A stretch of DNA of 22,820 nt from a virus. Every line of letters begins with the position of its first letter. The first letter of the stretch is position 1. Below, piece after piece: positions 12,590-14,344 of the stretch. A program made the translations under genes and the position numbers. The notes beneath the pieces are model-generated. The model was not told the DNA's origin. It ran no database searches and saw only the letters and a program-made list of their open reading frames with translations. Where the stretch lies: the IMG/VR virus record IMGVR_UViG_3300032092_000278, positions 1 through 22,820 of that record, one strand, 5' to 3'.

Positions 12590-12720
12590 TTGCATTCTCC
12601 ATAAGCAGCCATTAACTTCTGGGCTTCTTTATGTTTACCATTTCTGGCGAGATCTGCTGCTGTTTTAGCATAGCCAATTCCCTTCATAAGAACATAAATT
12701 GATCTGAAGAATTTTTTCAT
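12586..12720 (-). CDS. Small phage protein, 44 aa
   Basis: Encodes a basic 44-residue peptide beginning MKKFFRSIYVLMKGIGYAK and ending LMAAYGECK. I recall similar short proteins (MKKFFRS ... A--LAR-GK---A--LM--GECK) in marine phages; function unknown. The ATG at 12720 shares a base with the Hsp20 stop (TAATG) and is preceded by GGAAG. It probably forms amphipathic helices; the N-terminal part is moderately hydrophobic but not a clear membrane segment. Confidence 0.75.
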   Translation of the reverse strand: MKKFFRSIYVLMKGIGYAKTAADLARNGKHKEAQKLMAAYGECK

Positions 12721-13199
12721 TATACTTCCTCAGTCAATAATTGTTTCTTACCAGCAGATTTAACTGGAATTTTCTTTGGTTTCTTTTCCTCTGGAATCAA
12801 ACGCTCCAAAGCAATTTTAAGCATACCATTGAACAGTTCTGCGTTTTTGACTTCGATGTGATCATCAATAGCAAAGGCACGAGTAAATGCACGAGTGGCA
12901 ATACCTTTGAAGAGGAAGTTATCATCTTCTGGAGTTGTTGCGTCAACATTACCCTTAACAATTAACTTACCACCATCGATAGTGATGTCGATCTCAGACT
13001 CACCGAAACCAGCAACTGCCAATTCGATTGTGTATGAGTTCTCATCATTCTTACGAATGTTGTATGGAGGATAGTTAGGAATATTCTTTGTCACATCATC
13101 ATGAAATGTTTGCAAACGCTTAAATTGGTCATCGAAACCAATAAAGAATTTATCAAGGTCTTGTGGAAAGAATGCAGGTACGAAAGATTTAGTAACCAT
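12720..13199 (-). CDS. hsp20: Small heat-shock protein Hsp20
   Basis: A 159-aa alpha-crystallin-type chaperone. It starts MVTKSFVPAFFPQDLDKFFIGFDDQF, then has the alpha-crystallin domain (YNIRKNDENSYTIELAVAGFGESEIDITID, KLIVKGN, FKGIATRAFTRAFAIDDHIEVKNAELFNGMLKIALER) and a C-terminal IPV-type motif (KKIPVKS). Hsp20 is common in T4-like phages of aquatic bacteria, where it may help particle assembly or protect proteins. The ATG at 13199 is chosen because AAGGAG is eight bases upstream; the open frame extends further without a ribosome site. Confidence 0.96.
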   Translation of the reverse strand: MVTKSFVPAFFPQDLDKFFIGFDDQFKRLQTFHDDVTKNIPNYPPYNIRKNDENSYTIELAVAGFGESEIDITIDGGKLIVKGNVDATTPEDDNFLFKGIATRAFTRAFAIDDHIEVKNAELFNGMLKIALERLIPEEKKPKKIPVKSAGKKQLLTEEV

Positions 13200-13209
13200 T
13201 ATGATCTCC

Positions 13210-13434
13210 TTACTTAGTTGCGAATGCTTTTTTAGCATCAATTGAAGTTGCAGCTGTACCAACAGTAGTGAAAAAATCTACAGTTGATTTAGCGACAGTC
13301 TTAGCAAATGATTGCTGAGCATCGATATAAGTTTGGAGGGATTTTGCGACTTCATCGTTTTGAACGAATGTCTTAACGAATTGAGTCTTTGCACCAGAGA
13401 TGGTGTCGATGGTTGTGTTGATTGCTGATAACAT
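13210..13434 (-). CDS. Small helical protein, phasin-like, 74 aa
   Basis: A 74-aa, Ala/Thr-rich, probably all-helical protein without cysteine or tryptophan. The run YIDAQQSFAKTVAKSTVDFFTTVG resembles phasins, which coat PHA granules, or general amphipathic-helix proteins; this is a weak similarity. The ATG at 13434 follows AAGGAG. It lies 10 bases before hsp20, suggesting joint expression. A UUCG hairpin stands 33 bases before its start. Confidence 0.78.
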   Translation of the reverse strand: MLSAINTTIDTISGAKTQFVKTFVQNDEVAKSLQTYIDAQQSFAKTVAKSTVDFFTTVGTAATSIDAKKAFATK

Positions 13435-13570
13435 AGTGTTCTCCTTTTCAGCGAGTTAATTAAAATTGATACCCCGAAGGCATATCAGGTGCTGGTTACA
13501 ACTCCAGCGACATCGTGCGTCATGTCTGCTTTAAAACGATTCGTAACTTAGTGGTCCTAAGGTGAATTTT
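13435..13570 (-). other. 136-base structured intergenic region
   Basis: No convincing gene is here; a 12-codon ATG frame lacks a ribosome site. On the minus strand it contains CTTAG-GACCA-CTAAG just after the pqqA-like stop, GCTGG with CCAGC (13491-13508), and a UUCG-tetraloop hairpin (13468-13486) before the 74-aa gene. The 8-mer GAATCGTT occurs twice, once at the end of the pqqA-like gene. It could be a long structured 5' leader or a small RNA; I could not match it to a tRNA or a riboswitch I know. Confidence 0.5.
13468..13486 (-). promoter_or_regulatory. C(UUCG)G hairpin before the 74-aa gene
   Basis: Minus-strand order: GATA, T, a bulged G, CC, loop TTCG, GG, G, TATC. C(UUCG)G hairpins are known as very stable structures from T4 mRNAs, where they sit between genes. 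The same plan with a different outer stem occurs at 13682-13702. Confidence 0.65.
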
Positions 13571-13642
13571 TTAACGATTCATCACATACATAGTGATTTC
13601 GAATCCGTATCTCATTTCTACTGCTTCTGGTTTAGTCCACAT
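13571..13642 (-). CDS. PqqA-like precursor peptide, 23 aa
   Basis: Encodes a 23-residue peptide that begins MWTKPEAVEMR and continues YGFEITMYVMNR. As recalled, bacterial PqqA (substrate for pyrroloquinoline quinone synthesis) has the same length and frame: MW-KP----R-G-E-T-Y--NR. The two residues that PqqE cross-links, Glu15 and Tyr19, are in the correct places here (GFEITMY). The ATG at 13642 has AAGGAG seven bases upstream. No pqqB, C, D or E is in the window, so host enzymes would have to process it. The similarity at 23 residues is striking, but whether it serves as a PQQ precursor is unknown. The gene is bracketed by two UUCG hairpins. Confidence 0.8.
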   Translation of the reverse strand: MWTKPEAVEMRYGFEITMYVMNR

Positions 13643-13659
13643 ATTAATCTCCTTAGTTA

Positions 13660-13681: not shown

Positions 13682-13702
13682 TTATTCCCCGAAGGCAAAT
13701 AA
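13682..13702 (-). promoter_or_regulatory. C(UUCG)G hairpin upstream of the pqqA-like gene
   Basis: Minus-strand order: TTATT, T, a bulged G, CC, loop TTCG, GG, G, AATAA. Same core and bulge as at 13468-13486 but with a different, still fully paired, outer stem, which points to selection on structure. Confidence 0.65.
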
Positions 13703-13742: not shown

Positions 13743-13750
13743 TATTTATG
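13743..13750 (-). promoter_or_regulatory. Candidate T4-type late promoter
   Basis: Minus strand CATAAATA, one base different from the T4 late consensus TATAAATA, ending the 53-aa gene. Transcription from it would cover the UUCG hairpin and the pqqA-like gene. Such an octamer can occur by chance in AT-rich DNA. Confidence 0.35.
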
Positions 13751-13907
13751 CTTTTGGTGCTTCAGCAGCATTGTTCAATAGTGCTGCCTGTGGGTCACCT
13801 TGCTGTTTAATCTTACCGATTAATGCAACGACTTCCTCGAAAGGATGCTTACCCAAAACACGCAACACAGTGTTTACTTCTTCAATACTCAATTCAAGTT
13901 TGATCAT
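13746..13907 (-). CDS. Small phage protein, 53 aa
   Basis: Encodes MIKLELSIEEVNTVLRVLGK followed by HPFEEVVALIGKIKQQG and an Ala-rich end. I recall similar 50-60-residue proteins ('-KLELT-EEVN-IL--LGKLPYE-V--LI-KI--Q') in many T4-like phages; function unknown. It is probably two or three helices. The ATG at 13907 has AGGA seven bases upstream, and the gene follows regA by 17 bases. Confidence 0.82.
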   Translation of the reverse strand: MIKLELSIEEVNTVLRVLGKHPFEEVVALIGKIKQQGDPQAALLNNAAEAPKA

Positions 13908-13924: not shown

Positions 13925-14344
13925 TTATTTAGTTTTCTTACCAATGTTATATTTAGGAACAAGTTCCCATTCGTTTTTCTCTTTAAAAGAGACAACTTTA
14001 ATTTGAGACAAAGATGCCTTTTGCTCAGACTGCGTTGGATGTAGAATCTTTAATAGATCCCAATCTTGCAATAAGCCAGCAATAGCATTTCTTCTCTCAA
14101 TATCGCCACTCGTGATGTTAGATTCTTTACCATCAAGAGCAAACAATTCTTTGAAATGCACAATGAAGTATCTACCTTGCTTATGTAAAATATGGCAAGA
14201 TTGATACAATGTGTTTTCTTTTCTGGAAGCAATCCCGATTCGGGTAAGTGTCTCACGAACCTTCAAAAAATTATCTGGTTCAGGTAATATCACTTCAAGC
14301 ATCGACTCAGGAGTCCAGTCGTAATAAATCAATTCGACAGTCAT
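13925..14344 (-). CDS. regA: Translational repressor RegA
   Basis: RNA-binding protein that blocks translation of many early phage mRNAs by covering their start regions. The 139-aa product matches T4 RegA (122 aa) through FLKVRETLTRIGIASRKENTLYQSCHILHKQGRYFIVHFKELFALDG and the ending VVSFKEKNEWELVPKYNIGK. It has about 14 extra residues at the N-terminus; the ATG at 14344 is preferred because AGGTGG precedes it, while the internal ATG (MLEVILPEP), which corresponds to the T4 start, has only a weak site. Start shares a base with the gp62 stop, as in T4, where regA is also next to 62. Confidence 0.96.
   Translation of the reverse strand: MTVELIYYDWTPESMLEVILPEPDNFLKVRETLTRIGIASRKENTLYQSCHILHKQGRYFIVHFKELFALDGKESNITSGDIERRNAIAGLLQDWDLLKILHPTQSEQKASLSQIKVVSFKEKNEWELVPKYNIGKKTK

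Follow-up and report, generated by a model that had tools for sequence, protein, structure and literature searches.

A stand-alone phage pqqA gene as a candidate supplier of PQQ precursor in methylotroph phages

The closest described counterpart of the gene analysed here is the PqqA encoded, together with a viral methanol dehydrogenase, by the Lake Baikal phage population VP_266 (PMC7678222). That phage, which was assigned to Methylophilaceae, resembles the one studied here in being T4-like, in encoding PqqA and in having a benefit to methanol oxidation proposed for it, but it represents one uncultivated population whose pqqA comes with a methanol dehydrogenase, whereas here pqqA stands alone and recurs in at least 120 contigs and in isolates. 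On the bacterial side, Methylophilaceae have 3–12 copies of pqqA, while their pqqBCDE genes generally occur as one set (PMC4109929). The gene in our window (by which we mean the whole 22,820-nt stretch of the IMG/VR record IMGVR_UViG_3300032092_000278) is like these bacterial genes in its length, motif and Shine-Dalgarno site and in the occurrence of stand-alone copies away from pqqBCDE (PMC4109929). Unlike them, the window copy lies on a phage genome, and it shares at most 54 of its 72 bases with the bacterial copies sampled, so that it was not recently copied from the hosts sampled. A third relevant system is pmoC of methanotroph phages, for which late expression has been reported and which is likewise a single C1-oxidation gene carried without partners near hsp20; it encodes an enzyme subunit, however, whereas the product of the window gene is a substrate peptide that is consumed (PMC7674155). 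Finally, pqqA, pqqD and pqqE have been noted on viral contigs of reservoir sediment and framed as phosphate solubilisation genes (PMC13188868), in a report whose passages on these genes contain no analysis of the PqqA peptide or its spread. The sequence-only reading from which we started had left open whether such genes were already described in phages; in the open-access literature phage pqqA is already known as a kind of gene, with VP_266 as one earlier description, while the papers on phages Venkman and Melnitz in the same literature do not mention pqqA. What is new here is the breadth of its distribution, its carriage by cultured methylophages that had been described as lacking it or presumed to lack it, its stand-alone state, and its repeated gain or loss at one slot.

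The window gene lies on the minus strand (13642..13571) and consists of 23 codons plus a stop, encoding the peptide MWTKPEAVEMRYGFEITMYVMNR. Positions 13571–13642 had been assigned to pqqA in the sequence-only reading, which had the peptide right, with the strand as the one point to be corrected; a plus-strand reading is ruled out, as its translation is not the PqqA peptide. The comparison with the Pfam PqqA family PF08042, which had been set beforehand as a refuting test, gave a significant score of 35.6 bits (8.8e-9; curated cut-off 21.1), and the NCBIfam PqqA model TIGR02107 gave 34.6 bits (1.2e-8; curated cut-off 20). With a PqqA HMM that was built from bacterial peptides the window peptide scores 56.1 bits, compared with at most 9.3 bits when the window was dinucleotide-shuffled 40 times, and a PF08042 search of the full 22.8 kb record returned no match besides pqqA. 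The translation falls within the length of about 20–30 residues expected of PqqA and has all of the landmark residues that had been named for it (MW-KP, R11, G13, E15, Y19 and the final NR). The glutamate and tyrosine are spaced E-x-x-x-Y, and these are the two residues that PqqE cross-links. The peptide also bears the M-R-[FY]-G-F-E-[VI]-T-M-Y-V-[MC]-N signature of Methylophilales. Its own ribosome site, the Shine-Dalgarno sequence AAGGAG (13649..13654, minus strand), is found six nucleotides ahead of the ATG, as first described. We conclude that the window gene is very probably a functional pqqA.

Two further elements lie upstream of the gene. The pqqA 5′ untranslated region folds into a C(UUCG)G hairpin (13682..13702, minus strand), in a region of unexceptional stability (z −1.45). 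Approximately 100 nt upstream of pqqA is an ATAAATA sequence (13743..13749, minus strand), a candidate core of the T4-like late promoter (NATAAATA). This motif is depleted in the window (1 match vs 7 expected by chance), shows a strong strand bias in the regA relatives and also stands upstream of pqqA in L130, L135, L138, L148, L151 and L168. Because it shares bases with the stop codon at the end of the preceding 53-codon ORF and is absent in L127 and L129, it stays a hint of late transcription and a candidate only.

The gene is embedded in a T4-like replication region that includes the clamp genes gp44, gp45 and gp62 as well as RegA, DNA polymerase, ligase and Hsp20. The setting is thus the phage replication region that had been described, and no other pqq gene was seen in the window, which is itself a fragment. 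The window DNA polymerase is only ~54% identical to those of the nearest isolates, which are Synechococcus phages, and the window phage is therefore without a close cultured relative. Immediately around pqqA we delimited a variable slot, the left border of which is formed by the translational repressor gene regA (13925..14344, minus strand; PF01818, 169 bits) and the right border by hsp20 (12720..13199, minus strand; PF00011, 60 bits; phrog_432). Between these borders are a 53-codon ORF upstream of pqqA (13746..13907, minus strand), which is conserved among relatives, and a 74-codon ORF ahead of hsp20 (13210–13434, minus strand), which is conserved in part of the relatives and for which NCBIfam and PHROG gave no match.

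In close relatives that have pqqA, the gene is located between regA, with the 53-codon ORF, and hsp20, and in most relatives it is absent from this position. It is present in 15 of the 66 contigs of the regA tree, a distribution that needs seven changes, at least five of which are forced by well-supported branches. The records of 31 regA relatives with no pqqA at the slot were searched whole, and none was found elsewhere in these records, which may be incomplete. The regA–hsp20 slot thus has the pattern of a cargo site at which pqqA was repeatedly gained or lost, and since most close relatives do without it, the gene is dispensable or host-specific. In methanotroph phages pmoC adjoins hsp20 in six genomes (PMC7674155), and by analogy this flank of hsp20 may commonly receive cargo of that sort.

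The sequence-only reading had turned on the conservation of the cross-linked pair and on purifying selection among relatives, and both are observed. Glu15 and Tyr19 are present in 117 of 117 distinct viral copies, every one of exactly 23 codons, in a search whose pattern left codons 15 and 19 free and fixed the neighbouring codons. Both residues are also present in all 15 copies that were reached through regA, for which no pqqA pattern was used. For 112 viral copies (102 distinct DNA sequences) we obtained a pS of 0.67 and a pN of 0.14, hence a pN/pS of 0.21, a value partly lowered by the search pattern. Synonymous sites are close to saturation, as in an old family under constraint. Of the 111 viral copies checked, all but one have an SD-like motif ahead of them (110). 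The window gene itself differs from that of L091 at one base (71 of 72 the same), and for 21% of the sampled viral copies the encoded peptide agrees at every residue with a bacterial peptide recovered by the same scan. With T4-like replication genes on both sides and a pN/pS of this size, pqqA qualifies as a metabolic gene of host type that is carried by a genuine phage genome and kept under purifying selection.

When 50,697 phage records were searched in all six frames, pqqA turned up in ten of them, Acinetobacter hits excluded. These are one uncultivated phage from a spring and nine isolates, namely P19250A, Venkman, MEP301, MEP401, MEP402 and four Melnitz variants, the hosts of which are all Methylophilales. 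The carrier isolates belong to unrelated groups (Melnitz to Kyanoviridae, MEP401 and MEP402 to Zobellviridae, P19250A and Venkman to a group of their own, and MEP301), and phages have therefore probably gained pqqA on more than one occasion. At least 120 IMG/VR contigs matched a degenerate pattern. A restricted pattern with GAG at codon 15 matched 85, and this kind made up 9 of the first 120 contigs listed; provided that those 120 are representative, the counts extrapolate to a total of ~1,100 pqqA contigs, with a binomial range of roughly 600–2,400.

In the viral records inspected, pqqA is either unannotated or replaced by an annotated antisense ORF, which bears out the expectation that gene callers miss so short a gene. 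In MZ577095.1 (L002) and MW202481.1 (L004) an opposite-strand ORF is annotated at the pqqA site, likely a false call that hides pqqA. The Baikal paper says of isolate P19250A that it has none of the auxiliary genes reported there (PMC7678222); contrary to that statement, P19250A encodes an unannotated PqqA, MWTTPAATEMRFGFEVTMYVMNK. Matches to Acinetobacter 'phage' records were not counted, as these contigs have an entire bacterial pqqBCDE operon along with further genes of bacterial type. One of them, CAKLQF020000010.1 (L003), filed as 'Acinetobacter phage MD-2021a', contains a complete bacterial pqqABCDE region among many bacterial genes and looks like mis-filed bacterial DNA.

We also searched for partner genes in 50 pqqA-bearing viral records, which are often fragments but include complete isolate genomes such as that of Melnitz. 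PqqD was found in 0/50, a PQQ_2 dehydrogenase domain in 0/50 and any radical SAM domain in 3/50, and a pairing of the peptide with phage radical SAM enzymes or dehydrogenases finds no support in these counts. In view of the lack of PqqD and of PQQ-type dehydrogenases in these records, the peptide would need the PqqD and PqqE of the host. The presence of pqqBCDE in the same genome is typical of bacterial pqqA and does not define it, as Methylophilaceae have solitary extra copies. All 16 methylotroph genomes checked contain pqqA, in 1–12 copies and usually several, and 14 of the 16 have a PqqD match, usually one; several pqqA genes beside usually one pqqD in Methylophilaceae hosts fits a precursor-dosage role. 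Since one PqqA is consumed per PQQ, the multiple pqqA copies of the hosts suggest that it matters how much precursor is available, a supply to which a phage copy would add. In a methylotroph with five pqqA genes, two are reported to have the highest expression, which increases along with PQQ production (PMC9851590).

Judged from sequence, our main reading, to which we assign a probability of about 0.82, is that this is a genuine phage-borne pqqA that would act as an auxiliary metabolic gene by substrate supply. The 23-residue peptide would be made in the infected cell, most likely that of a Methylophilales methylotroph, where host PqqD and PqqE would cross-link Glu15 and Tyr19 and host PqqB/F/C would complete PQQ. 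The extra PQQ would then supply methanol dehydrogenase (XoxF/MxaF), and methanol oxidation would power phage replication. As one PqqA is used per PQQ, a 72-base gene would be enough to raise the flux of the host pathway. The analysis establishes the gene itself, with its family membership, conservation, spread and separation from other pqq genes, and from these data we infer expression of the phage gene, cross-linking by host PqqE and a metabolic benefit. The earlier suggestion that the phage provides PQQ precursor for a PQQ-dependent dehydrogenase of the host is thereby the best-fitting of the alternatives then offered, with the metabolic effect itself as its conditional part.

The identity of the host and of the enzyme served is the part of the main reading most open to another interpretation. 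A true PqqA could instead serve a different PQQ-dependent enzyme, such as a dehydrogenase of sugars or alcohols, in a host that is not a methylotroph, given that the window host is deduced indirectly and that PqqA also occurs in Burkholderiales and Rhodocyclaceae. All isolates with pqqA infect Methylophilales, however, and the window peptide bears the Methylophilales signature. On the strength of that peptide and of distant isolates the window host would be a methylotroph, and we consider the non-methylotroph interpretation unlikely. As phage pqqA comes without partner genes, its product could either promote or impede host PqqDE, the latter as a decoy or inhibitor that occupies PqqD/PqqE and lowers PQQ, thereby redirecting carbon or stopping host respiration. 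A decoy could afford to lose one of the cross-linked residues, but neither Glu15 nor Tyr19 varies, and one in five of the phage peptides is the same as a host peptide, which makes a decoy quite improbable. Even less credit is due to the idea, which the sequence-only reading had raised and which we found unsupported, that the peptide feeds a different radical SAM enzyme and gives rise not to PQQ but to some other ribosomally made product modified by such an enzyme: the few records with radical SAM domains speak for it, but a PqqD-like partner is found in none of the 50, no partner gene is consistent, and the PqqA motif is complete and agrees with that of host PqqA. That pqqA is a recently captured, functionless host fragment kept by chance would accord with its patchy distribution and its five to seven or more gains or losses, but it is contradicted by the low pN/pS together with high synonymous divergence, by the gene's own SD site and by carriage in unrelated phage groups, and is the most improbable of these explanations.

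If substrate supply is what phage pqqA provides, a phage can boost an entire cofactor pathway by providing its raw material alone, from a gene that does not exceed a tRNA gene in length, and PQQ supply becomes a testable bottleneck in phage-infected methylotrophs. It would also connect viruses with the turnover of methanol in lakes and in coastal seas, make pqqA a simple sequence marker of methylotroph phages and mean that catalogues of viral metabolic genes are blind to very short genes. The gene is testable now, as isolates with cultured hosts carry it. A wider proposal, to which we would give even odds, is that pqqA may be the typical metabolic gene of the phages of methanol oxidisers: a 72-base substrate-dosage gene that unrelated phages gained many times because the consumed peptide limits PQQ, and that nearly all annotation has missed. 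In T4-like phages, its gain and loss at the regA–hsp20 slot may signal that a phage has moved to a methylotroph as its host.

Directly downstream of pqqA, ahead of the 74-codon ORF and hsp20, we identified a structured leader RNA of ~130 nt (13442..13569, minus strand) on the basis of covariation, with a score of 133.9 bits against its model R1. The leader is also present in relatives without pqqA and is therefore independent of that gene. A pattern scan found it in at least 119 IMG/VR contigs, including L127, L158, L140 and L153. Among the matches listed with enough sequence, hsp20 comes after the leader, directly or past a small ORF, in 66 of 69, and the leader follows regA in 74 of 76. Its seven-helix structure, in which most helices covary, has standard pairs in 96.3% of cells of the 58-sequence alignment A2, with 17 pairs changed on both sides (shuffled mean 13.7) and 240 cells changed on both sides (shuffled mean 77), and pairing falls to ~31–34% when the partners are slid by one base; as the structure was partly read off the same alignment, the slide control leans in its favour, but the shuffle control and the compensatory pairs rest on more than that. 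Two of the helices are fully paired pseudoknots (columns 33–35 with 52–54 and 44–45 with 74–75). The leader had no match in Rfam 15 at gathering scores or in INPHARED by blastn, and it was not found in the isolates Melnitz, HTVC008M and DSL-LC03. Model R1 also detects diverged members ahead of hsp20, and the element looks like a candidate new cis-regulatory leader of phage hsp20. A ROSE_3 thermosensor match (14.9 bits vs a cut-off of 43) was sub-threshold and was not used; it is the only sign, and a weak hint, of thermosensing. At window positions 13552–13562 and in its invariant TTCACCTTAGGACC block, the leader has an invariant stretch, ACCTTAGGACC...TAAGTTACG, which resembles the reverse complement of the helix 69 region of 23S rRNA (CGTAACTATAACGGTCCTAAGGT), so the leader might be antisense-like to helix 69, or the resemblance might be a coincidence.
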